64,000 nt of DNA from Aquaticitalea lipolytica (GTDB lineage Bacteria > Bacteroidota > Bacteroidia > Flavobacteriales > Flavobacteriaceae), in NCBI RefSeq assembly GCF_014641635.1, contig NZ_BMIC01000002.1:248001-312000 (forward strand). The letters are read 5' to 3'. Under the pieces are notes generated by a model. It had not been told where the DNA came from and ran no database searches. It saw nothing but the letters and a program-made list of their open reading frames with translations. This document shows positions 18,286-42,028 of this stretch, one piece after another (the stretch's first letter is position 1; each line of letters opens with the position of its first letter). A program made the position numbers and the translations under genes.

Positions 18286-20511
18286 ATGAAAATTATTTTT
18301 AGTGTATTGCTATTAATAGCAATGCCATCTTTATATTCTCAGAATAACTTAAACGGAGTTATTACTGACAAAACTACTAACGAGGCTATCATTTTTGCGA
18401 ATGTTTATTTTCCGCAATTAGAAAAAGGAACTACTACAGACGAAAACGGATCTTTTAGTCTTACAAACATTCCAACTGGAACATACAAAATTGTTGTTTC
18501 CATAATTGGTTATGAAACTTTATCTCAAAACATCACATTCCCATATACAGACATTTTAAATGTACAACTAAACCCTTCAGCAATTGAAATGGAAGAGGTT
18601 ATTGTATCAACTCCTTTTCACAAATTACAGAGTGAAAATGTAATGAAAGTTGAGCAAGAAAAAATATCCGATTTAAAATCTAAAGGTGCAGTTACACTTG
18701 CTGATGGATTATCGAATATTGCTGGTGTAGAAACTGTAACAACTGGTGTGAGTATTGGCAAGCCTGTAATTAGAGGTTTAAGTTCTAATCGAGTTTTAGT
18801 TTACACTCAAGGCGTTAGATTAGAAAATCAACAATTTGGCGATGAACATGGTCTTGGACTTAATGATGCTGGTATAGAAAGTGTTGAAGTAATTAAAGGG
18901 CCTGCTTCTCTACTCTATGGTAGTGATGCGCTTGGTGGAGTATTGTATTTTAATCCAGAACGATTTGCGCAAAACAACACATCCAGTGGTGATATTAGTG
19001 CAAATTACTATTCAAATACTCAAGGCTACAATACTAATGCAGGTTTTAAATCTTCTGGTGAAAAATTTAAATACATTTTTAGAGGAAGCTTAGCAGAACA
19101 TTCAGATTATAAAACTAACAGTTATAGAGTAACAAATACACGCTTTAGAGAGCAAGATTTTAAAGCTGCTTTAGGATACCAAGTAAACAACTTTAAAACA
19201 GAACTGCGTTATAATTTAAATAGCTCAAAACTAGGTATTCCAGAAGAAATTGGAGAACAATCTACTAACAGAGCGCCATTATTACCTTATCAGAATATTA
19301 CTAATCATATTTTAAGTTCAAAATCTACAGTGTTTTTTAATAATTCGAGTTTAGATATCAATTTAGGATTATTATATAACGACAGAAAAGAATTTGAAGA
19401 AGAACATCATCATGATGATGAAGATGAAGAAGATGAGCATGAAGAGCATGAAGAAGAAACCTTAGATGCAGCACTTCACATGAAGCTAAAAACGTTTAAC
19501 TATGATATAAAATACAATCTTCCAAAACTTGGTAAGTTTGAAACTATTGTAGGCGTTCAAGGTATGAGTCAAAATAACGCTAATTATGGTGAAGAAGAAT
19601 TAATTCCTGATGCAACTACAAATGATATTGGGATTTTAGCAACATCACATATTCATTTTGAAAAAGCAGATATACAACTAGGTGCACGCTTTGATAATAG
19701 AACCATAAGTGTCGTTGACGGGTTAAACAAAAAATTTAATAGTTTTAATGGTGCTATTGGAGTGAAAACAAATATTGCAAATCAAATCACAGCACGACTA
19801 AACTTAGCTTCAGGGTTTAGAGCTCCAAATTTAGCTGAATTAACTTCAGATGGAACTCATGAAGGTACTAATCGTTATGAAATTGGAAATCCAAACCTAA
19901 ACAATGAACAGAATTTTCAAATCGATTTAGCATTAGAATACAAAAATGAGCATTTAGAGCTTTTTGCAAATGGTTTTTATAATATTGTAAATGATTACAT
20001 TTTTCTGTCACCAAATGGCGATGTTATAGATGATACAGATGTTTATCTTTATCTTCAAGATGATGCTAAGTTATATGGTGGAGAAATCGGGTTTCATTTA
20101 CATCCTCACCCATTAGATTGGTTGCATTTTGAAAGCAGCTTTGAAACCGTTACAGGTAAACAAAATAATAATGACAGCTATTTACCTCTAATTCCTGCAA
20201 ATAGTTTGAATAACACAGTTAGAGTTGAATATAACACAAAATGGCTAGACAAAGGATATGCCTTTATAAAATTAAATTCTACTTTTAAACAAAACAATGT
20301 TAGTGGTTTTGAAACTACAACTAGTGGTTATGACTTATTAAGTGTTGGATTTGGTGGTATTGTTAAACTTTTTGATAATGAATTGAGCATAGCTATATCT
20401 GGTAGTAATTTAACTGATAAAGAATATATTAATCATTTATCTAGATTAAAACCTGAAGGCATTTACAATATGGGACGCAATTTTAATATTGGTCTTACAT
20501 ACACACTTTAA
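18286..20511 (+). CDS. TonB-dependent receptor with His/acid-rich loop, probable metal receptor
   Basis: This 741-residue protein has a signal peptide ending LYSQ and a carboxypeptidase-D-like domain (residues 22-100). The plug carries KPVIRGLSSNRVLVYTQGVR and VIKGPASLLYGSDALGGVLYF, and the barrel has LASGFRAPNLAELTSDG and a final Leu-ending strand. At about residues 370-392 one extracellular loop has five His among roughly fifteen Asp/Glu, a pattern known from zinc receptors of the ZnuD type. With the His-rich gene just upstream, uptake of a free divalent metal is the best guess; zinc or copper cannot be separated from sequence. Confidence 0.9.
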   Translation: MKIIFSVLLLIAMPSLYSQNNLNGVITDKTTNEAIIFANVYFPQLEKGTTTDENGSFSLTNIPTGTYKIVVSIIGYETLSQNITFPYTDILNVQLNPSAIEMEEVIVSTPFHKLQSENVMKVEQEKISDLKSKGAVTLADGLSNIAGVETVTTGVSIGKPVIRGLSSNRVLVYTQGVRLENQQFGDEHGLGLNDAGIESVEVIKGPASLLYGSDALGGVLYFNPERFAQNNTSSGDISANYYSNTQGYNTNAGFKSSGEKFKYIFRGSLAEHSDYKTNSYRVTNTRFREQDFKAALGYQVNNFKTELRYNLNSSKLGIPEEIGEQSTNRAPLLPYQNITNHILSSKSTVFFNNSSLDINLGLLYNDRKEFEEEHHHDDEDEEDEHEEHEEETLDAALHMKLKTFNYDIKYNLPKLGKFETIVGVQGMSQNNANYGEEELIPDATTNDIGILATSHIHFEKADIQLGARFDNRTISVVDGLNKKFNSFNGAIGVKTNIANQITARLNLASGFRAPNLAELTSDGTHEGTNRYEIGNPNLNNEQNFQIDLALEYKNEHLELFANGFYNIVNDYIFLSPNGDVIDDTDVYLYLQDDAKLYGGEIGFHLHPHPLDWLHFESSFETVTGKQNNNDSYLPLIPANSLNNTVRVEYNTKWLDKGYAFIKLNSTFKQNNVSGFETTTSGYDLLSVGFGGIVKLFDNELSIAISGSNLTDKEYINHLSRLKPEGIYNMGRNFNIGLTYTL

Positions 20512-28404: not shown

Positions 28405-29283
28405 TTACTTAAGTGTAAACTGTGTAGAAGACACTAATTCTTTTTTGTTGTAAACATTAACTGTGTAACGTCCTTCAGAAAACTCTCCACTAGGTGAAAC
28501 AAACTCACAAATGTTTATGCTTCTGTTTTCGTAGTTAAATTTACTTATTAAGCTATAATTTAATGATTTATCACCAAATTGAATTTGCTCATTTACACCT
28601 AAAACATTACTTCTAGGATCTAATACTTGTACATATAATTCTTTATCTCCAGCACCAACTAAAGTGTTTTTAGCTACAGTAAAGCATATTCTAATTTTAT
28701 CACTTCTTGAAGCTCTTTCAGTAGGAATTAATTTACCTGAACTTCTTTCAATAACACCATAACTCTTTAAATCAACAGTTTGAAGTACAGCGGCATTTTC
28801 AACAACATTAGCTAATTCGTTGTTTTGCACTAATAATGAATCAGAAAACATTGTACGCTCAGCTAATCTAACGTTAGTACTATCTAAAGATGTTGCTAAT
28901 AATGAGTTTTCAATTTTTAATCTGTCATTTTCAGTCAACAACGCATCCATTTCTTCTTGTAACGCTAAAAATTTCTTTTTATAGCTCCATAATCCTTTAA
29001 CTGATGCTTGAGAAATTTTTAATGAATCCATTAAACCTTGAATACGATTTCTTGCTTCTACTAAATCTGCATTTGCAGCTTCATTCTCTCCAATAGCAAT
29101 ATCATATTGTTTTGCCATGTTACTCAAGTCTGTCATAACTTGTTGTTTCTCTTCTGTTAATTCAGCTTGTACTTTTTTACTGTCATTATACAATTTTGAA
29201 GTGTAAAATCCTGTTCCTAAAAACAGTGCTAATAAAATTCCTAATGCAATTTTTAATCCTGTGCCTTTGTTTGTACTTTCCAT
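28405..29283 (-). CDS. Membrane-anchored coiled-coil protein, unknown function
   Basis: This 292-residue protein has one N-terminal transmembrane helix (about residues 10-27). A long heptad-rich coiled coil runs from residue 33 to roughly 165 (VQAELTEEKQQVMTDLSNM, LLTENDRLKIENSLLATSL). The C-terminal domain is beta-rich: KIRICFTVAKNTLVGAGDKELYVQVLDPRSNVLG and ICEFVSPSGEFSEGRYTVNVYNKKELVS. This looks like an inner-membrane anchored periplasmic or envelope protein with a small sandwich head. It is placed between hutI and hutG on the opposite strand. I do not recognise a named family. Confidence 0.75.
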   Translation of the reverse strand: MESTNKGTGLKIALGILLALFLGTGFYTSKLYNDSKKVQAELTEEKQQVMTDLSNMAKQYDIAIGENEAANADLVEARNRIQGLMDSLKISQASVKGLWSYKKKFLALQEEMDALLTENDRLKIENSLLATSLDSTNVRLAERTMFSDSLLVQNNELANVVENAAVLQTVDLKSYGVIERSSGKLIPTERASRSDKIRICFTVAKNTLVGAGDKELYVQVLDPRSNVLGVNEQIQFGDKSLNYSLISKFNYENRSINICEFVSPSGEFSEGRYTVNVYNKKELVSSTQFTLK

Positions 29284-29392
29284 AAGTGTTTGTTGTATTT
29301 AACGTTAATTCTATTTTAAATAATTTATTTTTGATGAAGGAAATAAATAAAACTGTATTTTTATTTTTTAGTAAAATTAAACAAATTCCTAC

Positions 29393-30415
29393 ATGGATAA
29401 ACTTATTCTCTTTAATAATAACGATTTAAAAAATCTTTTAAAAAATCGTCCTAGCGAATCCAAGTTTGGAAATCATGTCCAATTACTTCCCGACTTCAAT
29501 ACTATATACGATTCACTTTTAACTTTGGACGTTGACTATGTTATTTTTGGTATAAAAGAAGATGTAGGAGTATTCGCAAACTACGGAAATACAGGTGCTT
29601 CAAAGGCTTGGGATGCCACTCTAAAAGTTTTGTTAAATATACAGAGTAACGAGTTTACAAACCCAAGCAAAGTTCTAATTCTTGGTCATTTAGACTTTTC
29701 TGATATGATGGAAAAAGTAAAATTACTAGACCAAAACAACAAAAAAGATATTACTAAAGCCCGAAAAAAAGTAGCCAAAATAGATAAATACGTTACCGAT
29801 TTAGTATATCAGATAGTAAAAGCTGGAAAAACACCAATAATAATTGGTGGTGGACATAACAATGCTTACGGAAATATTAAAGGCACATCATTGGCTTATA
29901 AAAAACCTATTAATGTTGTTAATTTTGATGCACATTCCGATTTTAGACGTGAAGAAGGCAGACATAGTGGTAATGGTTTTAGCTATGCATATACCGAAGG
30001 TTTTATGAAAAATTACTTCATTTTCGGATTGCATGAAAACTACACTTCTGATAATATATTTCAGATTTTAAATAAGTTTAAATCTATACAATACAACACG
30101 TTTGAAGCTATTTCTATAAGAAATGAACTTTCGTTTAAATCTGAACTAGAACGTGCCTCAGATTTTATATGTGACAAACCTTTTGGTGTTGAATTAGATT
30201 GTGATGCAATAAAAAACATGCCTAGTAGCGCCATGACACCAAGTGGTTTTAGTGTAAAAAAAGCTAGAGCGTTTGTCAATTATTTTGGAAAACATAAAAA
30301 CGCACAATATTTGCATATCTGTGAAGCTGCTCCAACACCTGAAACCGAAACTAAAGTTGGAAAACTTATTACCTATTTAGTAACCGATTTTATGAGAGCA
30401 AATCAATCCAAATGA
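29393..30415 (+). CDS. hutG: Formimidoylglutamase (arginase family)
   Basis: This 340-residue ureohydrolase-fold enzyme probably hydrolyses N-formimidoyl-glutamate to glutamate and formamide. The binuclear manganese motifs are GGGHNNAYG (about residues 150-158), NVVNFDAHSDFR (DAHxD) and FGVELDCDAIKNMP. The DCDAIK form, with two Asp, fits the family. With hutI nearby, a HutG role is more likely than arginase or agmatinase. Its TGA stop overlaps the ATG of the small membrane gene (ATGA), so the two are coupled. Confidence 0.87.
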   Translation: MDKLILFNNNDLKNLLKNRPSESKFGNHVQLLPDFNTIYDSLLTLDVDYVIFGIKEDVGVFANYGNTGASKAWDATLKVLLNIQSNEFTNPSKVLILGHLDFSDMMEKVKLLDQNNKKDITKARKKVAKIDKYVTDLVYQIVKAGKTPIIIGGGHNNAYGNIKGTSLAYKKPINVVNFDAHSDFRREEGRHSGNGFSYAYTEGFMKNYFIFGLHENYTSDNIFQILNKFKSIQYNTFEAISIRNELSFKSELERASDFICDKPFGVELDCDAIKNMPSSAMTPSGFSVKKARAFVNYFGKHKNAQYLHICEAAPTPETETKVGKLITYLVTDFMRANQSK

Positions 30416-30708
30416 AACAAGATAAGCAATATAGTATTGATTTGTGGTTGTTTATTAGCAGCGCTATAGTTTTTTTGTATTTACTTTTTATGGATTATGC
30501 AGTTGTAAATAACTGGGATAATACTGCTTGGGGAGTTATTACAGAACTAACGACCATTCCAATGCTATTTTTAGGTTGCGTTATACCAATTGTAGTCATA
30601 TATAGATTGATTACTAATAAGGCACAAAACAGATCTCTAGCTATATTATCAATGTTTTTTTCATTAATGACAGTGGCTGTTATTGCATACTTAACTTTTT
30701 ACCAATAG
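30412..30708 (+). CDS. Small membrane protein coupled to hutG
   Basis: This 98-residue protein has three hydrophobic helices, at about residues 12-30, 42-65 and 76-96, separated by short polar loops. It overlaps the hutG stop by four bases and is followed after one base by the GNAT gene, so three genes form one unit. There is no recognised domain. A transporter or stress-related role cannot be inferred from position alone. Confidence 0.75.
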   Translation: MKQDKQYSIDLWLFISSAIVFLYLLFMDYAVVNNWDNTAWGVITELTTIPMLFLGCVIPIVVIYRLITNKAQNRSLAILSMFFSLMTVAVIAYLTFYQ

Positions 30709-30709
30709 T

Positions 30710-31174
30710 ATGATAAAGATTATTTCTTTTAATAAACAATATTCTAAAGATTTTTACGAATTAAATATAGAATGGCTTAAAACTTATTTTTATGTTGAGC
30801 CATTTGACGAAGAAGTGTTAAGCAAACCAGAACTTTATATTATTGATAAAGGAGGTCATATTTTCTTTGCAAAACTTGACAATGAAATTGTTGGCACTGT
30901 TGCTTTAATGCCTACAAAAGCTGATGGTGTTTTTGAACTTACAAAAATGGCTGTATCGCCTAACCATAGAGGTTATAAAATTGGTCAGCAACTTATGCAA
31001 CATTGTATAGATTTTGCCAAACAAAGTCAGTTTAAAGGACTAATGCTCTACTCTAATACGTTACTAGAAAACGCTATTTATATTTACAGAAAACATGGTT
31101 TTATTGAGATTCCTGTTGAAGCAAACTCGCCTTATAAACGTAGTAATATTAAAATGGAGTTAAAATTCCTGTAA
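30710..31174 (+). CDS. GNAT-family N-acetyltransferase
   Basis: This 154-residue single-domain acetyltransferase has motif A, LTKMAVSPNHRGYKIGQQLMQ (about residues 79-99), with the acetyl-CoA pyrophosphate loop RGYKIG. NEIVGTVALMP comes before it, and YIYRKHGFIEIP is the motif B end. The substrate is unknown. It is the third gene of the hutG unit, but function in histidine degradation is not implied. The stop codon lies within an inverted repeat, ATTCCTGT/ACAGGAAT. Confidence 0.85.
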   Translation: MIKIISFNKQYSKDFYELNIEWLKTYFYVEPFDEEVLSKPELYIIDKGGHIFFAKLDNEIVGTVALMPTKADGVFELTKMAVSPNHRGYKIGQQLMQHCIDFAKQSQFKGLMLYSNTLLENAIYIYRKHGFIEIPVEANSPYKRSNIKMELKFL

Positions 31175-31184
31175 AAACAGGAAT
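31165..31184. terminator. Possible weak terminator over the GNAT stop codon
   Basis: A perfect eight-base stem ATTCCTGT/ACAGGAAT with an AAAA loop spans the stop codon at 31172-31174. No T run follows directly, so it may be a weak terminator or an mRNA end structure. Confidence 0.4.
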
Positions 31185-31258
31185 CCTATTATTAATTTAG
31201 CTTTTTCTGTCATTCTGTTTCGTTGTCAAAATGGCAAACACAACTAAATTTAAAAATA

Positions 31259-31729
31259 TTATATCATATCAAAATAATAGAAATTATTAAATATTTTTAA
31301 AGAAATTGCTAAACAAAAACCTACTACAAAAGCGAAAATATTAAATTTCAATAATTTTTCTTTTTCAATCTTAAAATAATCAAAACTTACCTTTTTATAA
31401 TTCATTAAAAGAATTAATGACAAGGGTATTAATATGACAGAATAAACAATTAAACCTTCATTAAAAATTAATAAGAAATTAATAAGAAAAAAATAAAAAT
31501 ATTGACATATTAAAACCCAACCCAAAAAGTTTTTTTTAAATATTCCTATTAATGGTAAAATTAGAAATAGTGTTGTTTGGAAAGCTTTTGTAATTACAAT
31601 TACTCTCCAAGAAAAACTTTCTCCTGTTACATCTATATAATCTAAAACTTTATGAAGTTCAAAAAGTAGTGAACTTAAAAATAGAATTAGAATGAAAAAT
31701 TTTATAAAATGAATGAGTTTTAATTTCAC
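31259..31729 (-). CDS. Polytopic membrane protein, last gene of the AAA cluster
   Basis: This 156-residue protein has about five hydrophobic helices, with long Leu/Ile/Phe runs and few charged residues; Lys is frequent in the loops. Its start lies two bases after the stop of the 562-residue gene, so the two are probably co-transcribed. I do not recognise a family. The composition is more A/T-rich than its upstream partners. It could be a real membrane part of the cluster or only a downstream passenger. Confidence 0.65.
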   Translation of the reverse strand: MKLKLIHFIKFFILILFLSSLLFELHKVLDYIDVTGESFSWRVIVITKAFQTTLFLILPLIGIFKKNFLGWVLICQYFYFFLINFLLIFNEGLIVYSVILIPLSLILLMNYKKVSFDYFKIEKEKLLKFNIFAFVVGFCLAISLKIFNNFYYFDMI

Positions 31730-31731
31730 TT

Positions 31732-33420
31732 CTAATTTTGGCTTTTTAACGAATCAATTTTACGCTGTAATTGTTCAATTTCATCAGCATTTTCATTAAC
31801 TCTAGGCATTGTTAAAATTGAATCTATTGCTTGTTGCACTACATCAATATCTTTAGTTTCTTCAACAAAATAATAACCAATACCTTCACTTGCTCTCCAA
31901 GCTTCATTTAATTGATCATAAACTGTTTTATCCCATTGACTTGGGTGTTTTACATCTATCCAAATTACATCTCTGTATTCACTATCAATAAGTGCTAAAT
32001 CTGGTGTTGCAGAACCATCAAATTTTTTAGAGTCATCTTTTATGGCAGATACTGTTCCTAAAAAGAACATACGTCTGCGGCCTGCTATATCTTTAATATA
32101 AGGTCTAAACTCAACAGGTTTATTTACTGACCAATCAAACTCTTTACGAGACTCTATCATTTTCAATGGCATTGCCGAAACTCCAGCATAACCTTGCTTT
32201 TTAGCTGCATGATCATAATAATAAAGCTTATCTGTTCCATCTGCAGGAATAAATACGCTATATGTTAAACTGGTTCGCTCATCGCCTACTGGTTCTAATC
32301 CAAACCAATGGTATAATCCGTTAAAAGCATCAGAATCTGTATCCTTAAAATCAAAATCGGTAACAAATGGTTGCTGATTCTGGTCGTCTGGTAAATCTGG
32401 TATTTTTACAGCTGTTTGCATTTTCCAAGGTAATGGGTCTGTAAATCCTCCTAAAAATTTCAACGATTCTGCCTGCAAACGAGATACTTTTTCTGATAAT
32501 GTATTCTGTTTTGTGAGATAAGGATATTTATGCATTTCCTCTGGACTTATATAAGTTCCTTTACCAATAAGTACACGCTCCATATAATCATTAAAATCGT
32601 GCTCACCATTATCAATAACCATTACACCTCCAAAAGTTGGATAAGGAAATAAAATGCCCTTCCATTTAATTAAGCTAACAACTTCTACCCAACTACCTGA
32701 ATCATTTTTCATATAAAACGTATCACTAGGCTCTAAAGAAAACAGCTGAAAGAAATTAAATCGTTGCACTACTGCATTGTATGTATTACGACTAAATTTT
32801 AAAGATTCTCCTATTGAAAAGGTTACTGCAATTCGATTTTCACTTGAAAAACGAGGAAAAGGCGATGTACTAGATACTGCGAATACTTCTTCAGTATTTT
32901 CACTTATTTGTTGTAACGTATATTTTTCTGAAGGTTGTATGGCCATTGTCCATTTGTTCTCTCCATCTACTCTTACTAAATGTGGTAACGATACATCTTT
33001 GGTTTCGCCAACAGACTCATTTGCCATTGAGAAAATATTGCGTAACGGCTGAATTCGTTCGTTTTGGGTTAAAGGCAATTCATTAATTTCAACTCTATTA
33101 AGGTTGTTGAAAACGTTATATGTTTTCATATAATCGTACATTTTATAATGCCAACCTACAAGATATAGTAACCCAAAATAAGCCGCTACAGTACCAAGCA
33201 ATGCAATTCGTTTTCCTGTACTAGGCGTACTTCTAAATTTTCGCATGAGCAAAAACAATACTAATGCACTAACAAGAATAATAAAAATGTATTTTCTGAT
33301 GAATAACAAAAATGGTTGATAATCATCACGTAGAAAAAACAAAGCAATCAATAGTATAATACTTACAATAATTGTAATTGTTTTTTGCCTTTTGCCTCTA
33401 TTCCAGTAGTTTTTTATCAT
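31732..33420 (-). CDS. Large membrane protein of the AAA/coiled-coil cluster
   Basis: This 562-residue protein has three N-terminal transmembrane helices (about residues 14-30, 37-58 and 70-88). A large soluble domain rich in Trp, Tyr and Pro follows, with strings such as GVMVIDNGEHDFNDYMERVLIGKG and ADGTDKLYYYDHAAKKQGYAGVSAMPLKMI. The chain ends in a short coiled coil, ENADEIEQLQRKIDSLK. It may be a large periplasmic or cytoplasmic head on a membrane hairpin. I know this pattern only as an uncharacterised Bacteroidota family. Eighty-five bases with a REP-like element separate it from the next cluster gene. Confidence 0.75.
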   Translation of the reverse strand: MIKNYWNRGKRQKTITIIVSIILLIALFFLRDDYQPFLLFIRKYIFIILVSALVLFLLMRKFRSTPSTGKRIALLGTVAAYFGLLYLVGWHYKMYDYMKTYNVFNNLNRVEINELPLTQNERIQPLRNIFSMANESVGETKDVSLPHLVRVDGENKWTMAIQPSEKYTLQQISENTEEVFAVSSTSPFPRFSSENRIAVTFSIGESLKFSRNTYNAVVQRFNFFQLFSLEPSDTFYMKNDSGSWVEVVSLIKWKGILFPYPTFGGVMVIDNGEHDFNDYMERVLIGKGTYISPEEMHKYPYLTKQNTLSEKVSRLQAESLKFLGGFTDPLPWKMQTAVKIPDLPDDQNQQPFVTDFDFKDTDSDAFNGLYHWFGLEPVGDERTSLTYSVFIPADGTDKLYYYDHAAKKQGYAGVSAMPLKMIESRKEFDWSVNKPVEFRPYIKDIAGRRRMFFLGTVSAIKDDSKKFDGSATPDLALIDSEYRDVIWIDVKHPSQWDKTVYDQLNEAWRASEGIGYYFVEETKDIDVVQQAIDSILTMPRVNENADEIEQLQRKIDSLKSQN

Positions 33421-33431
33421 AATTTATCATT

Positions 33432-33502
33432 TGTCATTCTGCGCTACGACGCAGAATCTATTCTTTTTGTTTTTGGATTCCGCATCCAAGTGAGGAATGA
33501 CA
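33432..33502. repeat. REP-like double hairpin between cluster genes
   Basis: Outer arms TGTCATTC (33432-33439) and GAATGACA (33495-33502) enclose two hairpins. The first is ATTCTGCG/CGCAGAAT with a CTACGA loop, and the second is TTGGAT/ATCCAA. This is the form of dispersed TGTCATTC...GAATGACA intergenic repeats in flavobacteria. A fragment, CTGTCATTCTG, recurs near 31207. Confidence 0.65.
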
Positions 33503-33505
33503 GGC

Positions 33506-34039
33506 TTACATCAATCCTTTATCCTTTAATCGCTCACGAGCACTTTTCTCTTGAGTTTTTGGCTCTTCTTTTACTTCATTTACTGCTTCTTTAACATCAG
33601 ATTCTTTAGTTTTTAAATCTTCAATAAAATCTTTGCCCTTTTCGATAGTGTCTTGGATTTTATCTTCTAATGAATCACTTTGTTCTTCAATAACTTTAGT
33701 TGATTTTATTACAAAATTTGCAAGATATGTGCCTACAAGAGTCCCAACGATTATCGAACAAAATATTGAAATACCATTATAGCTACCAAATATATTTATT
33801 GGCGTTAAAAACTGAAGAATAACAGCTATTACTAAAAAAGAAGCTGCTACAAAAACTAATCTTGGTAAAAATGCTTGTTGAAAAATAAACCCTTTTTTGT
33901 CTGTTGGTTTCATTTGCAACTCTTTACTGTTTACAAGTTTGTTTACAAATCGGTAAGTAGCATTACTATTAGACTCTCTCCAATACAAAAGAATACCGAA
34001 TAATATTGATGCGATAAAAATTACTAATTCTATTCCCAT
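33506..34039 (-). CDS. Membrane protein with charged helical tail, AAA cluster
   Basis: This 177-residue protein has three hydrophobic segments, at about residues 3-19, 53-73 and 86-109. A highly charged Lys/Glu-rich helical tail follows (residues 112-173), predicted to form a coiled coil (EEQSDSLEDKIQDTIEKGKDFIEDLKTKESDVKEAVNEV). The chain ends SARERLKDKGLM. It is placed between the 562-residue and 411-residue genes, all on one strand. The tail could bind a cytoplasmic partner such as the coiled-coil protein at 38.4 kb. There is no recognised family. Confidence 0.72.
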   Translation of the reverse strand: MGIELVIFIASILFGILLYWRESNSNATYRFVNKLVNSKELQMKPTDKKGFIFQQAFLPRLVFVAASFLVIAVILQFLTPINIFGSYNGISIFCSIIVGTLVGTYLANFVIKSTKVIEEQSDSLEDKIQDTIEKGKDFIEDLKTKESDVKEAVNEVKEEPKTQEKSARERLKDKGLM

Positions 34040-34087
34040 GATTTATTTTTTATGATTTGATGTCTTTATAAAATTAGTCTAAAATTC

Positions 34088-35323
34088 TCAAATATTGTTA
34101 CTTATAACTTCAATTACCCAGTCTTTAAGTGATTCATCCCAAGTATTATAAGTCACATAAAACTGCTCTTTATCATACCAATACAAAAACAACACATCCA
34201 TTGGAGAAATATTAACGAGCAATTTCCAAATTAAATCCTGGTGTTTTGCATCTAGTGACGAATGTGGCTCATGCAAAGCATTAAACAGTTTTACATCAAC
34301 AATATCTGCTATTTTATATTGATTACTAACTTCTAATTTCTCAAGATACAACTCAACACTCATCACCTTTTTACGAGTGTCTATATCTAATTTATTGAGG
34401 TAACTTTTAAACAATACATTATCATTCAAAATGTCTTTAATTGGATGTTGTGTGTCTTTTAAACACTGTGATAACATAAACTTTTTAATACGTTCATATA
34501 GTTTGGTTTTTACAACTTCTTCTAAATCGTACTCAATAATAACATGGTCACGAAGTTTTTCCATAAGTTCTGGCTGTGACATATGAAAAATTATAACTTC
34601 ATGTATTGTATCTTTTATTGCTTCTTTATACCATTTTTCGTCTTCAAAAACTACAATTGGAGTAATAAAATCTCTTAACACATAAACTCCGTTGAATGCT
34701 TTAGTATAAAATGAGTCGGTTGTAAAATGAAGTTCATGTAAATTTAAATCACGATTACGTAAATCGCCATGTGCTTTAGCTGAAGCTAATAATTGCTCAT
34801 GTAAGTCTTCATCTATAAAATTATGCTCTACTTTAAATTTCTCAACTAATTGTAGTTGTTGTTTTTGTATTTTATCTAAATCGTTTATTAAATGAAATCT
34901 AATTACAACATCATTATATTTTAAAACATCTAAGGGTTCATAAAATGCATCGATATGCTGATCAAAATCAATACAGATAGCACAATCGCGAGTAATATCG
35001 TTTATCTTATCACCATGTGTTCTAAAAACATGTTGCATCATGTCTCTATCAAATGTATGAAACGGGTTATATACAGGTTTTCCTTTTTGTAAAGGCGAAA
35101 TAATGATGCCATGCGGATTGGCATCTCCATTATTCAAATAATAAACCTCTTTTTTTTCTTCGGCAATTTCAGGGCTCCAGCCAATTCCGTCAATAGAAAA
35201 ATTAGTAAGCTTAGTAGGTGTAAATCCTAACTTAGTTAAGCATTGATTATAACGCTCAACAAGCTTTCCGCTTATAGGAATAAGTTCGCTTCTATATAAA
35301 TTTGCTGCTTTAAGTTTTTGCAT
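34088..35323 (-). CDS. Uncharacterised protein following the AAA ATPase (possibly DUF6638)
   Basis: This 411-residue soluble protein is acidic and mixed alpha/beta, with no signal peptide or transmembrane helix. Visible features are GWSPEIAEEKKEVYYLNNGDANPHGIIISPLQKGKPVY, FHTFDRDMMQHVFRTHG, and a helical C-terminus with LYWYDKEQFYVTYNTWDESLKDWVIEVI. I recall Bacteroidota proteins of this length as DUF6638, but cannot confirm it. The start overlaps the AAA gene stop by one base, so the two are translationally coupled. A role as adaptor or substrate-binding partner of the ATPase is inference. Confidence 0.75.
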   Translation of the reverse strand: MQKLKAANLYRSELIPISGKLVERYNQCLTKLGFTPTKLTNFSIDGIGWSPEIAEEKKEVYYLNNGDANPHGIIISPLQKGKPVYNPFHTFDRDMMQHVFRTHGDKINDITRDCAICIDFDQHIDAFYEPLDVLKYNDVVIRFHLINDLDKIQKQQLQLVEKFKVEHNFIDEDLHEQLLASAKAHGDLRNRDLNLHELHFTTDSFYTKAFNGVYVLRDFITPIVVFEDEKWYKEAIKDTIHEVIIFHMSQPELMEKLRDHVIIEYDLEEVVKTKLYERIKKFMLSQCLKDTQHPIKDILNDNVLFKSYLNKLDIDTRKKVMSVELYLEKLEVSNQYKIADIVDVKLFNALHEPHSSLDAKHQDLIWKLLVNISPMDVLFLYWYDKEQFYVTYNTWDESLKDWVIEVISNNI

Positions 35324-37293
35324 TAATCATCATATTCTTTATCAAACTTCTCTCTAGCTTCAGTTTCTATATGCAATTGGTCAACTCGAGCGTCTACTTT
35401 TCGTTTAAAGTCAGTATCTGCAATAGTAGCCACGTTATCGATATATCTTACTACTTCTTGTCGTCTAATTTCAGAAAAATCTAAACCTTTCATATTAGCT
35501 CGCATCAATTCTTGAAGCATATTAAACTTAGTTTGATAATCTTTCTTAAAGTAGACTTCTGGGTTTTCAAACCAGCTTTGCTCTAAATCAAAATCTGTTA
35601 AACGCAACGAAATGGCAGATTGAATATTCCTTACATCACGTGATGAAAAGAATGGAAACACCTTTTGCATGTCTTTATACAAATTAGCATAAAACAAGTG
35701 TTCGCTAGTTTTAAATTGCTTCTCTACTTTATCATAAATAGCATGTACACGTTCTTCGGAAGGCTTATCAACTTTATTAAGGATTTCTCCCATGTTTTTT
35801 GCCAAACCTTGATCTTGTAGATATTGATAATTGTCTGGGTTTTTCATATTAACAAAATCTGGCATAGTATCGTCCAACTTTCGCCACCATAAATGATCTT
35901 GATCTAAAAAATCATGTTCTGTTCGAGCTCCATCAATTTTAAATCGACCTTGCACACGAGAAATTACTGCTTTATCTAACATTTCTGGAAGGTTTGTAAA
36001 AAGCCCAATAGAACTGTTACCATAATTAACTGCATAAGCGCCTTCAGTATATCTTAAAAACACTCCAATAACCTCTTTAACACCTGCAGAAACTCCTTGA
36101 GCGGTACGTTCTTGCAAATTATTCTCAGCATCATCAATAGGTGCGAAAATTAATTTTGAAGGATCTTGTAAAGGCTTCATCCACTCCACCATTTTTTCTG
36201 CAGAACCACCTTGAAAAGTACTAATTAAAGTATCAGGCATTGGATGAAACAAGAAAGGTATTTCTAATGTATCACAATGTTCTTTAAGTCTTGTTGCTAT
36301 GGCAGCAATTAACATACTTTTACCTGTTCCTGGAATTCCATAACCCATAAACACTGGCATAAAGCCACCAAGCTCTTGAAATGGATTCTTTTTGGCTGTA
36401 AAATCATAACTCAACAAACGTTCGGTTAAACGACGTGCAAAATGCTTTGCATCTCTGTTACCAACTATTTGTTCAAATCTTATTTTATTAAACTCAACAC
36501 TCTTTGCTGCTCCTGCAAACACATTATTCCAACCAGAAATTGCAAACTCTGATTTTTCGAGTTTATAAGTCCTGTCTAATATTGTTTCTTGATATTCTAA
36601 TGAGCTTTTTCGCATTTGAATTTCAGCGATTAAAGCTTCAAAATACACCACAGTAAAATCTGCTACATCTTTATCACTTTTAATAATATCTGGATGGCTC
36701 AAATACTTGTCATAATAAAACAACATACAAGCAATCCCTTTTAGAGGCGACATAAAAGATACTTCTGGTATGCCAGCAAACTTTTGCTTCATCACACTTA
36801 AATCGTCTGAAGCTACATTTTTAAGGTTATGAAGAATATTATAAGCCGTTGAGAACAACATAAATGCTGTTGACGTATGCATTTTACTTTCATACTCTCG
36901 TTTTCCTGAATCGTCTAAAGTAGATTTACGCTCATTAAGACTCGATAAACCTGACGCATCATAATAACTATCTTTAATCCAAATACCTAAAGTAATCCCT
37001 TCTTGTACTGCAAAAAGTGTTTGATTTAACAATACAGGAATTGCAATAGATTCTGGCAACAATCGTTTTTTAAGCTCTAAAATAGTTTTAGAGACAGATG
37101 TAATTTCTGATGTGTTTGTTCCATTATTTGCGCGAGACAAATACAATAAGATAGATTCATCTTTAGCATCTTTATCTTTATTTTTAGCACGTTGCCCTTG
37201 TTCCCATTGCACACTTTTAAGATACGATGTAGCTTCATCACGAAGCATATCGAGTTCAGACTGTTTTATAGGAAAGGTTGAGTTGTGTTCCAT
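35323..37293 (-). CDS. Classical-type AAA ATPase with atypical Walker B
   Basis: This 656-residue protein has a helical N-terminal half with no known domain. The AAA module spans about residues 300-460: Walker A GIPGTGKS (319-326), pore-loop-like TFQGGSAEKMVEWM (359-372), Walker B region LIFAPIDDAEN (381-391), sensor-1 FTNLPEMLD (432-440) with Asn434, and arginine-finger candidates Arg446 and Arg450. The usual hhhhDE is not clear: either DD replaces DE, or the pair is replaced by PI. The remaining C-terminal part is helical. Such ATPases remodel or unfold protein complexes. It is coupled to the genes on both sides (2-base gap and 1-base overlap). Confidence 0.85.
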   Translation of the reverse strand: MEHNSTFPIKQSELDMLRDEATSYLKSVQWEQGQRAKNKDKDAKDESILLYLSRANNGTNTSEITSVSKTILELKKRLLPESIAIPVLLNQTLFAVQEGITLGIWIKDSYYDASGLSSLNERKSTLDDSGKREYESKMHTSTAFMLFSTAYNILHNLKNVASDDLSVMKQKFAGIPEVSFMSPLKGIACMLFYYDKYLSHPDIIKSDKDVADFTVVYFEALIAEIQMRKSSLEYQETILDRTYKLEKSEFAISGWNNVFAGAAKSVEFNKIRFEQIVGNRDAKHFARRLTERLLSYDFTAKKNPFQELGGFMPVFMGYGIPGTGKSMLIAAIATRLKEHCDTLEIPFLFHPMPDTLISTFQGGSAEKMVEWMKPLQDPSKLIFAPIDDAENNLQERTAQGVSAGVKEVIGVFLRYTEGAYAVNYGNSSIGLFTNLPEMLDKAVISRVQGRFKIDGARTEHDFLDQDHLWWRKLDDTMPDFVNMKNPDNYQYLQDQGLAKNMGEILNKVDKPSEERVHAIYDKVEKQFKTSEHLFYANLYKDMQKVFPFFSSRDVRNIQSAISLRLTDFDLEQSWFENPEVYFKKDYQTKFNMLQELMRANMKGLDFSEIRRQEVVRYIDNVATIADTDFKRKVDARVDQLHIETEAREKFDKEYDD

Positions 37294-37295
37294 GT

Positions 37296-38357
37296 TTATA
37301 TGTTATCAATTTTTAATTCAGAAATTTGAATAGGTGGCTTTGCTAGTTTATTCATAATTTCTGGTGTTTTACTATATAATAATTGAATAATTCGGTGTGG
37401 CGCAAATACATAATTTTGATTAACAGTATCACTCCATTTTTGTAATGTTTGTTTTGAAAAATAGCCTCCTTCAGTAAATTCACTTCCAGAAAAAACTTCG
37501 TCAACTTTAAGAGATAAAGCGTAAGACTCTAATGGAATTTCTTTTTTGGCAATACTCTCTAAAATTGAATGTGTTATTTCGTTTTCATCTTTGGCAAATA
37601 CATTATGAAATGGTCCTAAATCGATACGTTTTATATGCTTTGGTTTTACATCAGGTAATTTTCTGTCAATACCATAAGCCATAGTATCTAGACTCATATC
37701 TCTATCAGCATTGTTCTTTAAAACTTCATAAATTTCATCTTTATAACTGTCAATATATTTACCTTCATAATCAAAGTACATGAAACAAACATAAGGCCTA
37801 TTATTAGCAACATCATAAAAGCTCCAGCTGGTCATATACTGTGAAGACATTCCTTTTGGTACTTCTATAATTTTACCTTGTACAAAACGATTGAAAATAA
37901 ATTTTTGTTCAACAGAAGTATAATATACTATTGATGCTGCTTGAAACAATTTGTATTTACTTACTGGCTCTTTTTTGCGTAAAATTTGATCAAGGAATTC
38001 GTCTTGTAACTCATTAACATCTTTAAGTTTATTAATGTAATTGTCGCGAAGTGATAAGTCGTTAAACAAATACCTAAATTCTAAATAATTAGGAAATCCA
38101 GAGTCGGTTAAATCGACTTTCATATTATCCTCAGCATCATACATATATTTAACACGCATTGCCTCTATTGAATATAATAACAAATCACAGTATTGCTTAA
38201 AAAACACAATCTCTTTTTGAGTACATATTTGATTTTGCTGTGCACTAACTATTAACTCTTTCAAAGCAAAGTCTACCATTTTATGGTAAAATACGTATTG
38301 CTCTTTTGAGTCTAGAACTGCTGAATCTAATGGTATTACAATATGATTGATTGACAT
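37296..38357 (-). CDS. Uncharacterised acidic protein, AAA cluster
   Basis: This 353-residue soluble protein is mainly helical in the first third (KMVDFALKELIVSAQQNQICTQKEIVFFKQYCDLLLYSIEAMRVKYMYD). It then alternates strands and helices, with GMSSQYMTSWSFYDVANNRPYVCFMYFDYEGKYI and RIDLGPFHNVFAKDENEITHSILESI. There is no signal peptide, Walker motif or recognisable enzyme motif. It sits two bases upstream of the AAA gene and 71 bases downstream of the coiled-coil gene. A regulator or adaptor of the ATPase is plausible, but I cannot assign a family. Confidence 0.75.
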   Translation of the reverse strand: MSINHIVIPLDSAVLDSKEQYVFYHKMVDFALKELIVSAQQNQICTQKEIVFFKQYCDLLLYSIEAMRVKYMYDAEDNMKVDLTDSGFPNYLEFRYLFNDLSLRDNYINKLKDVNELQDEFLDQILRKKEPVSKYKLFQAASIVYYTSVEQKFIFNRFVQGKIIEVPKGMSSQYMTSWSFYDVANNRPYVCFMYFDYEGKYIDSYKDEIYEVLKNNADRDMSLDTMAYGIDRKLPDVKPKHIKRIDLGPFHNVFAKDENEITHSILESIAKKEIPLESYALSLKVDEVFSGSEFTEGGYFSKQTLQKWSDTVNQNYVFAPHRIIQLLYSKTPEIMNKLAKPPIQISELKIDNI

Positions 38358-38428
38358 TTTTTATTAAAAATGAAATGTTTAATATTAGTTTAGAAAAGAA
38401 GCGCTTCATGAAGAAGCGCTAAAAATAT

Positions 38429-39775
38429 TTATGATAACAAATCGTCTGCTCCAGCTTCTGGTTTAGGAGTACCTGATGGTTTGCCTGCATCGTCACCCGA
38501 AGGTTTATTAGCTTCAGCTTTATAATAGTCTTCAAAAATTTCTTTCATGTCTATCCCATAGCGTTCAGCAAAATTCTTTTGTATATCAGCATCTTTAATA
38601 CGAATTTCTTGTAATGCTTCAGCATAACTACTATAAACGCCTTGCATTACTTTTTCATGAACTGGAATATTGTCCATCATTTCCTGACGTGCTTTTGCAC
38701 TTGCAGTATGCATTGCTGCTAAAGTTTCTCCAATATGCTCATCTGTTTTAACACCTAAATGCTCTAAAATTGCAGCAAACTCTTGATCTGTTCGTGCTTT
38801 TAAAGCAACTACATAACCATCATAATATTTAAGGCGTTCTTCAGTGTCTGACTTTAATTTTGCGCGATGAGTTTGTAAATTACTACGTAATGATGTTAAT
38901 ACTTTTATAGTTAAGTTGTGCTTATGCACAAAGCTATCTTTACTTGCTGCCAATGTTGTATAAGCATTTTTAAGTCCTTCTAACTCTTCAACTTTTTGCT
39001 CTAATGTTGTTACTTTACCTATAGCTTGTGCATAATCGGCTGATTGCTTATCAACAATTTCTTCTAACTCTTGACGTGCTTGTTTAAGTAGCGCATAATT
39101 TTCTTCAAGCTTTGCTTCTACTTCCTTCTTTTTTTCAAGTGCTTTAGTGTGATTTTTTGTTGCTTCAACTATAGCATCCTGTAACTTATCTTCTACTTCT
39201 TTAATCTCAACTTCACGATTTTTTAATCGTGTTACTGCTGCTTGCGATTTGAATGATAATTCACTTAAAAGTGTTTGCACATCTGCAGTTTCAATACGCT
39301 CTTGAAACATTGCTTTTGCTTTATTATCAGCAGCAGCACGTATCTTCTCAGCTTCAACTAAATCTTGCTCTGCTTTTTTAATTTTGCTTTTTCTTCCCCA
39401 AAGGTTATTCCACCAAGTGTCTGGTTTGTTTTGTGCATCTTCTAATTCAATTTTTGCACGTTCTAATGCTTTTTGAGCGTCATCAATAACTTTTTGTTCG
39501 TTAGCATTTAATGAAGAGAATTTTTCAAATATAATTCCAACTTCATCTTGGTAATCTGTTAAATCTTTTATGGCATCAAGAAGTGTAGTTCTATCTTTTT
39601 CAGCCATACCTACAACATCATCTAACGTTGCATTTAATATTTTTTGACGAACCTCAGGGTCATCTTCTTGTGCTAGTTTAGATTTCATAGTATCAATGGC
39701 TTTTCCCCAATTGACATCTACTTTTCCTGTTTTTTCGTTAGAATTGGTTTCTAATAAATCAAAATCATCAGACAT
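38429..39775 (-). CDS. Long coiled-coil protein heading the AAA cluster
   Basis: This 448-residue soluble protein has a short N-terminal acidic leader and a helix. A long coiled coil runs from about residue 90 to 300 (ALERAKIELEDAQNKPDTWW, LEENYALLKQARQELEEIV), interrupted by a Trp-rich, basic hook WWNNLWGRKSKIKK near residue 120. The C-terminal part has LRSNLQTHRAKLKSDTEERLKYY and a flexible Pro/Gly/Lys tail ending ADDLLS. The layout resembles TelA/ESCRT-like scaffold proteins in form only. It is the first gene of the cluster, with no good -7 box seen upstream. Confidence 0.78.
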   Translation of the reverse strand: MSDDFDLLETNSNEKTGKVDVNWGKAIDTMKSKLAQEDDPEVRQKILNATLDDVVGMAEKDRTTLLDAIKDLTDYQDEVGIIFEKFSSLNANEQKVIDDAQKALERAKIELEDAQNKPDTWWNNLWGRKSKIKKAEQDLVEAEKIRAAADNKAKAMFQERIETADVQTLLSELSFKSQAAVTRLKNREVEIKEVEDKLQDAIVEATKNHTKALEKKKEVEAKLEENYALLKQARQELEEIVDKQSADYAQAIGKVTTLEQKVEELEGLKNAYTTLAASKDSFVHKHNLTIKVLTSLRSNLQTHRAKLKSDTEERLKYYDGYVVALKARTDQEFAAILEHLGVKTDEHIGETLAAMHTASAKARQEMMDNIPVHEKVMQGVYSSYAEALQEIRIKDADIQKNFAERYGIDMKEIFEDYYKAEANKPSGDDAGKPSGTPKPEAGADDLLS

Positions 39776-39870
39776 AGTGCGTAGTGTATTTAATTGCGTT
39801 GAACAAATTTTTAATAAGTAGCAATTTCGTTAAAAAAATATTAGTTTTAAAATTATTACTGCTTAATTTA

Positions 39871-39890
39871 TTGGTATAATATGTTACCAA
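39871..39890. promoter_or_regulatory. Inverted repeat in the spacer before the AAA cluster
   Basis: TTGGTA and TACCAA arms are separated by eight bases and lie about 96 bases upstream of the coiled-coil gene (reading the minus strand). A related GTTACC occurs at 39995-40000. Possible operator; low support. The rest of the 282-base spacer (39776-40057) shows no gene. Confidence 0.3.
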
Positions 39891-40016
39891 AATGTTACAA
39901 CAAACAAAACACAAAGTATTTTATTGTGAGCTGATTACATGATTAATGTTAATAACTCATAGTAAAAAAAGTACAACAATTTTATTATGAAATAGTTACC
40001 AATTCAAATAATATTG

Positions 40017-40024
40017 TATATTTG
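40017..40024 (+). promoter_or_regulatory. Probable -7 box of the 74-aa membrane protein gene
   Basis: TATATTTG matches the consensus 33 bases before the ATG at 40058. Confidence 0.45.
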
Positions 40025-40057
40025 ATTTCCAAACCAAATCTTTTAAATACTTAAGTT

Positions 40058-40282
40058 ATGCTTAATTTAATTAACCTAAACCTCGTAGTCAGCACAATGC
40101 AGCTTACTATTGTCCTAATAATTACCGCTGCAGTCTTCTTATTTTTTATTGTTCTTGCAATTATAAAAATGTACAAATTAAAAGCTGAAAACAAACGTCT
40201 TTTAGATAGTGATGCTTTTAAGTTTGATGTTGATGAAAGTTATAAAGATTTTACTGAAGGACATTTATACGATAATAAATAA
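40058..40282 (+). CDS. Small single-span membrane protein
   Basis: This 74-residue protein has one transmembrane helix (about residues 17-37, QLTIVLIITAAVFLFFIVLAI). A Lys-rich juxtamembrane segment and an acidic tail, FKFDVDESYKDFTEGHLYDNK, follow. A second in-frame ATG at 40097 would give a 61-residue form starting MQLTIVL, which may be the real product because the first 13 residues are not needed for the helix. It is flanked by its own promoter and a strong terminator. No family is known to me. Confidence 0.65.
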   Translation: MLNLINLNLVVSTMQLTIVLIITAAVFLFFIVLAIIKMYKLKAENKRLLDSDAFKFDVDESYKDFTEGHLYDNK

Positions 40283-40298
40283 TATTAATTTATATAAT

Positions 40299-40328
40299 AA
40301 AAAAGCCAGCATAATTGCTGGCTTTTTT
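40299..40328. terminator. Bidirectional hairpin terminator before ettA
   Basis: Stem AAAAAAGCCAGCA/TGCTGGCTTTTTT with an ATTA-type loop. It serves the plus-strand small membrane gene and the minus-strand ettA. Confidence 0.92.
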
Positions 40329-40339
40329 ATTGACTGTTA

Positions 40340-42028
40340 TTATCTAACTAGTTTTTTGTATTTAATACGTTTTGGAGCTACATCACCTAAACGTTTTTTT
40401 CTGTTTTCTTCATAGTCACTAAAACTACCTTCGAAGAAATATACCTCAGAGTTCCCTTCAAAAGCTAGAATGTGTGTACAAATTCTGTCTAAAAACCATC
40501 TGTCGTGGCTAATAACAACTGCACATCCTGCAAAATTTTCAAGACCTTCTTCTAAAGCTCTTAATGTATTAACATCTAAGTCGTTAGTTGGCTCATCTAA
40601 AAGTAATACGTTACCTTCTTCTTTAAGAGTCATTGCTAAATGCAAGCGGTTTCGCTCACCTCCAGATAACAACTTAACCTTCTTGTTTTGCTCGCTTCCC
40701 GAAAAATTAAATCGACTTAAATAAGCACGAGAGTTTACTTGTTTTCCTCCCATTAAAACTAACTCTTGCTCATCACTAAAGTTTTGCCAAATTGATTTTT
40801 CAGGATCTATATTAGAGTGCTTTTGATCTACATAAGCGATTTTTGCTGTATCTCCAACTTTAAATTCTCCTTTATCTGAGGTTTCTTCTCCCATTATCAT
40901 TCTAAAAATAGTGGTTTTACCAGCTCCATTAGGACCAATAACACCAACAATTCCTGCTTGTGGAAGATTAAAGTTTAAATTGTCATATAACAACTTGTCA
41001 TCATAACCTTTACTTACACCAATAGCTTCGATAACATTTGTTCCTAAACGTGGTCCATTAGGGATGTAAATTTCAAGTTTTTCGTCAAGTTGTTTTTGAT
41101 CTTGACTCATTAATTTATCGTAATTATTCAAACGTGCTTTTTGTTTCGTCTGACGTCCTTTTGCGCCTTGACGAACCCATTCTAACTCACGCTCTAATGT
41201 TTTTTGTCTTTTAGATGCAACCTTACTTTCTTGAGCCATACGCTTAGATTTCTGATCTAGCCAAGAAGAGTAATTTCCTTTCCAAGGAATACCTTCACCT
41301 CTATCAAGTTCTAAAATCCAACCAGCAACATTATCTAAAAAGTATCTATCATGCGTTACTGCGATAACTGTTCCTTTATATTGTGCTAAATGTTGCTCTA
41401 ACCAATGTACAGATTCTGCATCTAAATGGTTTGTTGGCTCATCTAACAATAATACATCAGGCTCTTGTAAAAGTAATCTGCATAATGCTACTCGACGACG
41501 TTCACCTCCAGAAAGTACTTCTATTTTTTTGTCGCCATCAGGAGTACGTAATGCATCCATAGCAATTTCGAGCTTAGTATCAAGTTCCCAAGCATCTGAA
41601 GCATCAATCTTATCTTGTAATTCGGCTTGACGATTCATTAGCTTTTCCATTTTTTCTGGATTGCTATAAACCTCTTCTAAGCCAAACATATCGTTTATTT
41701 TATTGTATTCATCAAGAATAGCTACAGTTTCTGCAGCACCTTCTCGAACAACTTCCATTACGGTTTTGCTTTCATCTAATTGTGGCTCTTGTTCAAGATA
41801 ACCTACTGAATAATCTTGCAAAAATGTAACGTCTCCTTGGTAATTTTTATCTACTCCAGCTATTATTTTAAGTAATGTAGATTTACCAGAACCATTAAGA
41901 CCTAGAATACCTATTTTGGCTCCATAGAAGAAACTTAAATATATATTTTTTAAAACAGGTGTGTCTGCTCCTTTAAATGTCTTGGTTAGACCAGACATTG
42001 AAAAAATCACTTTTTTATCGTCACTCAT
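40340..42028 (-). CDS. ettA: Energy-dependent translational throttle protein EttA
   Basis: This 562-residue ABC-F ATPase binds the ribosomal E site and tunes early translation to the energy state. The two ATPase domains carry Walker A GLNGSGKST (about residue 42) and GPNGAGKTT (about residue 360), signatures LSGGERRRVALCR and LSGGERNRLHLA, and Walker B LLLDEPTNHLD and LLLDEPTNDLD. A linker with lysine and glutamine-rich helices (KRMAQESKVASKRQKTLERELEWVRQG) matches the P-site tRNA interaction motif. No transmembrane helices are present. It starts one base after the 60-residue membrane gene. Confidence 0.95.
   Translation of the reverse strand: MSDDKKVIFSMSGLTKTFKGADTPVLKNIYLSFFYGAKIGILGLNGSGKSTLLKIIAGVDKNYQGDVTFLQDYSVGYLEQEPQLDESKTVMEVVREGAAETVAILDEYNKINDMFGLEEVYSNPEKMEKLMNRQAELQDKIDASDAWELDTKLEIAMDALRTPDGDKKIEVLSGGERRRVALCRLLLQEPDVLLLDEPTNHLDAESVHWLEQHLAQYKGTVIAVTHDRYFLDNVAGWILELDRGEGIPWKGNYSSWLDQKSKRMAQESKVASKRQKTLERELEWVRQGAKGRQTKQKARLNNYDKLMSQDQKQLDEKLEIYIPNGPRLGTNVIEAIGVSKGYDDKLLYDNLNFNLPQAGIVGVIGPNGAGKTTIFRMIMGEETSDKGEFKVGDTAKIAYVDQKHSNIDPEKSIWQNFSDEQELVLMGGKQVNSRAYLSRFNFSGSEQNKKVKLLSGGERNRLHLAMTLKEEGNVLLLDEPTNDLDVNTLRALEEGLENFAGCAVVISHDRWFLDRICTHILAFEGNSEVYFFEGSFSDYEENRKKRLGDVAPKRIKYKKLVR

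Follow-up and report, generated by a model that had tools for sequence, protein, structure and literature searches.

We show that six adjoining genes of Aquaticitalea lipolytica form one conserved unit; they encode a predicted coiled-coil scaffold, a 353-amino acid (aa) protein, a classical AAA ATPase, a DUF6638 protein and two membrane proteins of 177 and 562 aa. The genes lie on the minus strand within a 64,000-nucleotide stretch of contig NZ_BMIC01000002.1 (positions 248,001 to 312,000; hereafter the window) and are followed by a seventh gene, for a 156-aa membrane protein, which is a passenger. We propose, with a probability of roughly 0.42, that the six products make up an ATP-driven inner-membrane machine in which the AAA ATPase would reshape the helical scaffold. 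A preliminary description of the window had listed seven minus-strand open reading frames (ORFs) at 31259-39775, among them an acidic protein after the coiled-coil gene and three membrane proteins, and all of these were present as given (Table 1).

Conservation of the unit in Flavobacteriaceae

To compare gene order we used the best 80 related loci found by AAA homology in species genomes. These are nearest relatives, with AAA proteins 79-93% identical to that of the window, and are labelled Flavobacteriaceae, its genera or less closely named Bacteroidota. The order coiled coil, 353-aa, AAA, DUF6638, 177-aa, 562-aa on one strand was found in 74/80 loci; the 177-aa gene was present in 77/80 and the 562-aa gene in 74/80. 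Among the six exceptions, four (L061, L091, L095, L097) lie on pieces ending near the cluster, one (L106) has a 7.9-kb insert between the AAA and DUF6638 genes and a piece that ends before the last gene, and one (L080) shows no DUF6638 gene within the 10 kb examined. Homologues of the 156-aa gene were seen in 5/80 loci, 30-35% identical, in keeping with the earlier suggestion that it could be a passenger.

The close junctions noted for the window are real: a 2-base gap between the 353-aa and AAA genes, a 1-base overlap between the AAA and 411-aa (DUF6638) genes and a 2-base gap between the 562- and 156-aa genes. They had been taken to support a shared function, yet such tight spacing is local to the window, since a gap of at most 5 bases was kept in 5/79 related loci at the 353/AAA junction and in 5/79 at the AAA/411 junction, often because small genes occupy the gaps. 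What is conserved across loci is gene order and strand, not spacing.

Sixty whole genomes of relatives (that of A. lipolytica included) gave the same picture of a unit, as one set of 14 genomes carries the coiled-coil, AAA and 562-aa genes alike; three AAA matches (E 1e-4 to 8e-4) and one 562-aa match (E 3e-4) elsewhere were set aside. For an empty-site check we took four cluster-negative genomes with a good match to the left neighbour. In one of them (G025) the neighbours w28405, arginase, acetyltransferase and ABC-F ATPase are successive, with about 360 bases between the last two at the cluster position. The arginase and ABC-F genes of G015 are 1.2 kb apart, the acetyltransferase not being detected there; G018 holds about 7 kb of other DNA at the cluster position, and the stretch from G029 yielded only the first two of the neighbours. 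Joint occurrence and the empty site indicate that the cluster is present or missing as a block, and the clean empty site provides a natural deletion for comparison.

On a larger scale, a coiled-coil match at E<=0.001 is present in 115 of 397 family genomes; with one weak match (G454) set aside, 114 carry the cluster and 283 do not. Across the phylum, DUF6638 was found in 4 of 296 genomes, all of the same family and the A. lipolytica genome included, and the other three also carry the coiled coil. The shared function that had been claimed for the core is well supported by gene order in 74/80 loci, by joint occurrence, by the empty site and by the distant four-gene core described below.

The core in Proteobacteria and on a phage contig

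Separate occurrence of the genes had been named beforehand as evidence against a shared function. In a search of 72,556 plasmid records, the AAA, DUF6638 and 353-aa homologues were instead confined to one common set of 10, large replicons from Vibrio, Sinorhizobium, Shinella and Rhizobium; the coiled coil is found in these 10 and one more. The four plasmid loci inspected carry the coiled coil, the 353-aa homologue, AAA and DUF6638 in that order; the AAA and DUF6638 genes of S. meliloti Ak57 are separated by an endonuclease ORF and an IS4-type transposase. By phmmer, each of the core genes in Vibrio and S. meliloti is a homologue of its counterpart in the window (E 2e-5 to 1e-66), and hhalign of the window against the proteobacterial set gave 97% for the coiled coil and 99% for the 353-aa protein.

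An IMG/VR contig of 359 kb (IMGVR_UViG_3300035698_035310) carries DUF2333, the coiled coil, the 353-aa homologue, AAA and DUF6638 in a row, and its coiled coil is homologous to the window scaffold by phmmer. We take this contig to be of phage nature from the Rz-like spanin, tail-fibre, DNA-polymerase and HNH phage families present in 30 kb of sampled ORFs; terminase PF03237, searched with one model, was not found on it. Three IMG/VR scans returned this same single contig only, and tblastn with AAA or DUF6638 queries gave no match in 50,697 phage records. Judged by these homologies, a four-gene core of coiled coil, 353-aa protein, AAA and DUF6638 is common to Flavobacteriaceae, Vibrio, Rhizobiaceae and the phage contig. 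On the latter (L109, 4619-20242), SmpB, DnaJ, a ClpA-like protein and a peptide deformylase family match were also seen near the cluster.

The AAA ATPase

The 656-aa protein had been called a classical-type AAA ATPase, and it matches PF00004 well above the cut-off (36.3 vs. 21.2 bits) and carries the AAA motifs. In full-length numbering these are Walker A at 319-326, pore loop 1 at F360-Q-G, Walker B at D387-D388, sensor 1 at N434 and arginines R446/R450, spaced R-x3-R. When 81 sequences (the window and the 80 loci) were counted, Walker A, sensor 1 and the arginine motif were kept in 81/81, Walker B as FAPIDDAEN in 80/81 and the pore loop as ISTFQGGS in 78/81; the pore loop reads I-S-x-Y-Q-G-K-S in three aligned proteobacterial AAA sequences. 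Solved relatives found by profile are Cdc48/VCP-type, pachytene checkpoint 2, proteasomal, Pex6 and Vps4 ATPases. The protein is not of the Vps4 type as defined by the domains given in an excerpt of PMC11237479, MIT and Vps4_C being absent from its Pfam scan at E<=1.

The coiled-coil protein

The structure model of the coiled-coil protein (predicted local distance difference test score, pLDDT, 66.6) is all-helical, with long helices at 166-239 and 246-326 and a shorter hairpin at 91-163. A hairpin insert covering about residues 105-150 carries W121-W122-N-N-L-W (WWNNLW) at its predicted turn, and WW..LWG is found at the hairpin tip in 75/80 sequences. With two fragments dropped, 67/78 sequences start with MSDDFDLLET and the C-terminal end is DDLLS in 45/78 and DDLLG in 21/78. 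Conservation is strongest in residues 249-415, where 134/167 positions are kept in at least 97% of sequences; the tail (416-443) varies (mean 0.50) and the last five residues are conserved (0.91). Median identity to the window over 78 loci is 87% for the coiled coil, 85% for AAA, 77% for the 562-aa, 73% for the DUF6638, 71% for the 353-aa and 64% for the 177-aa protein.

Structure comparison of the coiled-coil model gave a top Z of 13.0, most of the top 16 matches being alpha pore-forming proteins (Z 11.6-13.0); with this tool, Z under about 13 is common for helical bundles, and a designed bundle (11.6) and an SMC arm (11.2) come close. Alpha pore-forming proteins carry a hydrophobic hairpin on a helical bundle. 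JetC was considered as an identity for the coiled coil and its match (E 0.0013) was taken as chance.

DUF6638, the 353-aa protein and the membrane partners

Pfam gave names above cut-off to two of the seven proteins, the AAA ATPase and the 411-aa protein, and no NCBIfam model matched any of the seven above its own cut-off. The cluster had been described as lacking an assigned function, and the 411-aa protein as an unknown; the latter does, however, belong to a named family, DUF6638 (PF20343; 112.7 bits, cut-off 27). Its Vibrio, Sinorhizobium and phage-contig homologues also score above the DUF6638 cut-off. Its structure model has a mean pLDDT of 92.1; Foldseek found no PDB or BFVD match at E<=0.001 (best 1.3 and 0.42), and VIA-align reached a best Z of 4.2 over 39 residues. 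A missing structural match of this kind shows neither a new fold nor different folds. For the 353-aa protein, a BrxA match to the phage homologue (E 1.5e-4) was taken as chance, and a 45-member profile finds no PDB chain at E<=1. We found no publication naming DUF6638 in the open literature, and no description of the operon in the titles and abstracts listed.

By the positive-inside rule, the 562-aa protein would hold a domain of about 470 aa outside the cytosol. Three candidate matches of the 177-aa protein were taken as chance: LeoBC (E 0.0021) and two that fall short of the model cut-off, DUF1319 (E 1.6e-4) and, by a wide margin, a Chlamydia inclusion-protein model (E 1.4e-6). Outside Bacteroidota, DUF2333 (PF10095) fills the membrane slot in Sinorhizobium and Shinella, where its gene comes after DUF6638, and on the phage contig, where it comes before the coiled coil; no DUF2333 homologue was found at E<=1e-5 on the stretch examined of R. 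leguminosarum pRlX5 (L028). DUF6638 and DUF2333 are both named as families of unknown function. DUF2333 is built like the 562-aa protein, anchored at its N terminus and with a large domain for which the same rule would predict a position outside the cytosol. We rejected it as a homologue of the 562- or 177-aa protein, with no Pfam match at E<=1 and hhalign values of 0.4% and 0.1%.

On R. leguminosarum pSK03 (L159 5989-8343), the one additional plasmid record with the coiled coil, this gene and DUF2333 are the only cluster families at a Sinorhizobium-like setting, where the pair is enclosed by the Sinorhizobium-type neighbours choline transporter, thymidine kinase and formate-tetrahydrofolate ligase. 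Taken together, DUF2333 beside the core and this pair tie the scaffold to a membrane protein, and DUF2333 may be read as an exchangeable membrane partner of it. According to an excerpt of PMC5256989, a DUF2333 gene adjoins a Nudix gene in P. fluorescens.

Relation to PspA and ESCRT-III systems

As the layout of the cluster recalls ESCRT-III or PspA with an ATPase, we examined the presence of PspA in the hosts. In the 397 family genomes the cluster (114) and PspA (33) are found together in 3, vs. 9.5 expected (P 0.005, phylogeny not corrected). Counted by genus, 3/237 have both, vs. 8.0 expected (P 0.016); in one of these three genera, the cluster and PspA come from different species. Of the 60 relatives, 11 have PF04012 above cut-off, and the 14 that carry the cluster are all outside this group (2.6 shared genomes expected, P 0.039). 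The two samples overlap, and PF04012 matches below cut-off were set aside (six in the 397 genomes, four in the 60). These counts hint at a tendency towards mutual avoidance between PspA and the cluster. The window genome itself has no PF04012 match at E<=0.001.

The closest precedent that we found is the occurrence of PspA/Snf7 genes beside AAA genes in bacteria, for which an excerpt of PMC11237479 proposes ATP-dependent membrane remodelling. Our cluster resembles the PspA/Vipp1 or Snf7 arrangement in having a helical-scaffold-type gene beside AAA, and differs from it in that the window coiled coil lacks PF04012 (absent at E<=1). A single E. coli PspA reached 0.7% by hhalign, and PspA kinship was rejected. 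With the ESCRT-III/Vps4 systems (archaeal Cdv, eukaryotic ESCRT) the cluster shares a helical scaffold gene adjoining a classical AAA with an aromatic pore loop and, in Flavobacteriaceae only, a variable scaffold tail that ends in a short conserved motif. Unlike them, it has two further soluble partners and dedicated membrane proteins, its AAA has neither MIT nor Vps4_C, and no scaffold homology was found. For the coiled coil vs. ESCRT-III/Snf7 there was no Pfam match, and the structure model is too weak (pLDDT 66.6) to judge the fold. The 50 structure entries listed for this model include neither ESCRT-III nor PspA chains, an absence that does not exclude such matches.

Proposed mechanism and alternatives

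In the machine that we propose, the coiled-coil protein would be a cytosolic helical scaffold assembling on the inner face of the inner membrane, helped in Flavobacteriaceae by the hairpin with the WWNNLW tip. An AAA hexamer would grip the scaffold via its pore loop and, by repeated ATP hydrolysis, remodel or disassemble it; the 353-aa and DUF6638 proteins would be the adaptors. The 177- and 562-aa proteins, or DUF2333 in Proteobacteria, would anchor the scaffold and carry signal or work to the periplasm. The role could be to maintain the inner membrane or the envelope during stress. The preliminary description had likewise suggested an envelope-associated remodelling or stress machine; the AAA pore loop, the membrane proteins, the hairpin tip rich in tryptophan and the apparent avoidance of PspA agree with this idea, which stays at the level of a suggestion.

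Several observations weigh against the proposal. The scaffold model is poor, much of its C-terminal part scoring below 50, and the Walker B of the AAA ends DD, not DE. The neighbouring ABC-F gene is conserved above the scaffold (93% vs. 87%), the other neighbours being at 55-71%. The tryptophan-rich hairpin, DDFDLLET and DDLLS are missing from the aligned proteobacterial and phage scaffolds, and are therefore not essential to the core mechanism. Membrane proteins differ between the phyla, as the hhalign values for DUF2333 show; the Vibrio core lacks an adjoining DUF2333, which is encoded elsewhere on the replicon, and the pSK03 record has the scaffold without AAA, 353-aa or DUF6638 genes in that record. 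As for PspA, 253/283 family genomes without the cluster are also without PspA above cut-off, the four cluster-negative genomes examined at the site all lack it, two of the three genomes with both share a genus, and the test makes no correction for phylogeny.

A wider claim would be that this is an undescribed bacterial membrane-remodelling machine, following ESCRT-III/PspA logic without detectable sequence kinship, with two orphan adaptor families and interchangeable anchors, replacing PspA in many Flavobacteriaceae and acquired by a giant phage; in this full form we consider it rather unlikely. Were membrane remodelling confirmed, the machine would be a separate solution to a problem so far known from ESCRT-III/PspA, and could explain inner-membrane care in many Flavobacteriaceae that lack PspA. 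In any case, the orphan families DUF6638, 353-aa, coiled-coil and, by neighbourhood, DUF2333 become parts of one testable proposed machine that spans Bacteroidota, Proteobacteria and a phage contig.

Among other explanations, the one that survives best, though improbable in our judgment, is a cytoskeletal or cell-shape system, or part of an apparatus for secretion or gliding, with the scaffold as a cytosolic filament. Strong conservation of a long helical protein fits a filament former, and a membrane protein with a putatively large outer domain would suit such a system; on the other hand, 283/397 family genomes do without the cluster, and no gene of this kind was recognised among the window neighbours, the ones compared.

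We find it less probable again that the cluster is a conflict or anti-phage defence module, in which the AAA would sense or process, the membrane proteins would be effectors and the copy on the phage contig would be either captured or used as a counter-measure. Patchy, all-or-nothing presence (114/397 family genomes) with an empty site and a copy on a phage contig speak for such a module, and the AAA weakly matches IetA (window E 1.1e-5, Vibrio homologue E 6.8e-7). IetAS consists of IetA and the subtilase IetS. However, the match spans the AAA core only and no subtilase match was found among the seven proteins, so that the cluster does not belong to IetAS; nor do the core proteins match a nuclease, protease or toxin family above cut-off. 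The ABC-F neighbour in 59/80 loci and the strong constraint are unlike fast-evolving defence islands, and the phage side amounts to one viral contig in three IMG/VR scans, AAA or DUF6638 queries having found nothing in the 50,697 phage records.

Slightly lower still we place a Ter/TelA relationship, by which the coiled coil would be a diverged TelA and the operon would answer oxyanion or metal stress. What the cluster shares with TelA (PF05816)/XpaC and Ter operons is a stress-type operon that encodes a helical protein of comparable length. TelA proteins measure about 345-400 aa and are encoded in operons with TerD-like or XpaC-like neighbours, and a NudK-like Nudix gene accompanies our cluster in 55/79 loci. 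The two differ in that no profile similarity links TelA with the window coiled coil (hhalign 0.1-1.4%), and TelA kinship was rejected. The window genome has no PF05816 match at E<=0.001, and reciprocal hmmsearch over 24 sequences gave best E values of 0.006 (TelA profile, 1/15 coiled coils) and 0.036 (coiled-coil profile, 1/9 TelA); the TerD family matches none of the seven proteins.

A ClyA-type system, with the coiled coil as a membrane-inserting helical protein restrained or loaded by the AAA, is very improbable, since the pore-former matches that favour it have Z scores usual for helical bundles and come from a model of pLDDT 66.6, and the proteobacterial and phage homologues lack the hairpin.

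Features of the locus, inserts and neighbours

Table 1. Genes of the cluster, in transcription order, with positions in the window.
Gene	Position	Strand	Product
1	38429-39775	minus	448-aa coiled-coil scaffold (predicted)
2	37296-38357	minus	353-aa soluble protein, isoelectric point 5.4; nothing above cut-off in Pfam
3	35323-37293	minus	656-aa classical AAA ATPase, PF00004 E 9.1e-9
4	34088-35323	minus	411-aa DUF6638 protein, PF20343 E 2.6e-32
5	33506-34039	minus	177-aa membrane protein, 3 hydrophobic stretches, charged C-terminal part
6	31732-33420	minus	562-aa membrane protein, 3 N-terminal hydrophobic stretches
7	31259-31729	minus	156-aa membrane protein, GTG start, 5 hydrophobic stretches; passenger

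Rfam gave no match at 31000-40400, and promoter-like sites were at chance level (49 vs. 48.6). Terminator-like sites numbered 7, vs. 3.9 expected in shuffles. A terminator-like hairpin of 8 pairs (38400-38420, minus strand) was seen in the 71-base gap just 3′ of the coiled-coil gene; if it is real, the scaffold could be made in excess over the other parts.

The Nudix-group ORF that accompanies the cluster in 55/79 loci lies between the AAA and DUF6638 genes, a junction at which the window has no such insert. Three of these ORFs were scanned against NCBIfam and all fell in the YffH/AdpP subfamily, with NudK as the best model, above cut-off in one; two of the three also match Pfam NUDIX. Because a strict Nudix-box pattern is found in 19/55 gap ORFs, we do not claim activity for all 55. 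A search of the window genome with one Nudix ORF gave no match, in a run that had no positive control. Larger AAA/DUF6638 gaps hold further small genes, which gives this junction the look of a minor hotspot for insertions. The L106 insert (11957-19817) holds, by reading of the sequence, a 1492-aa CheB/CheR/PAS-type protein and two AraC-like regulators.

Elsewhere in the cluster, four-helix-bundle-like (21) and GIY-YIG-like (4) ORFs recur in the 353-aa/AAA and DUF6638/177-aa gaps (e.g., L031, L034, L038), and RDD-like ORFs are also seen in gaps other than AAA/DUF6638, all three names again coming from reading the sequences. The ABC-F gene neighbours the cluster in 59/80 loci. On the left side (28405-31174), a 292-aa coiled-coil protein, an arginase-family enzyme and a GNAT-like acetyltransferase recur in many loci; the 292-aa protein has one N-terminal anchor and paralogues.

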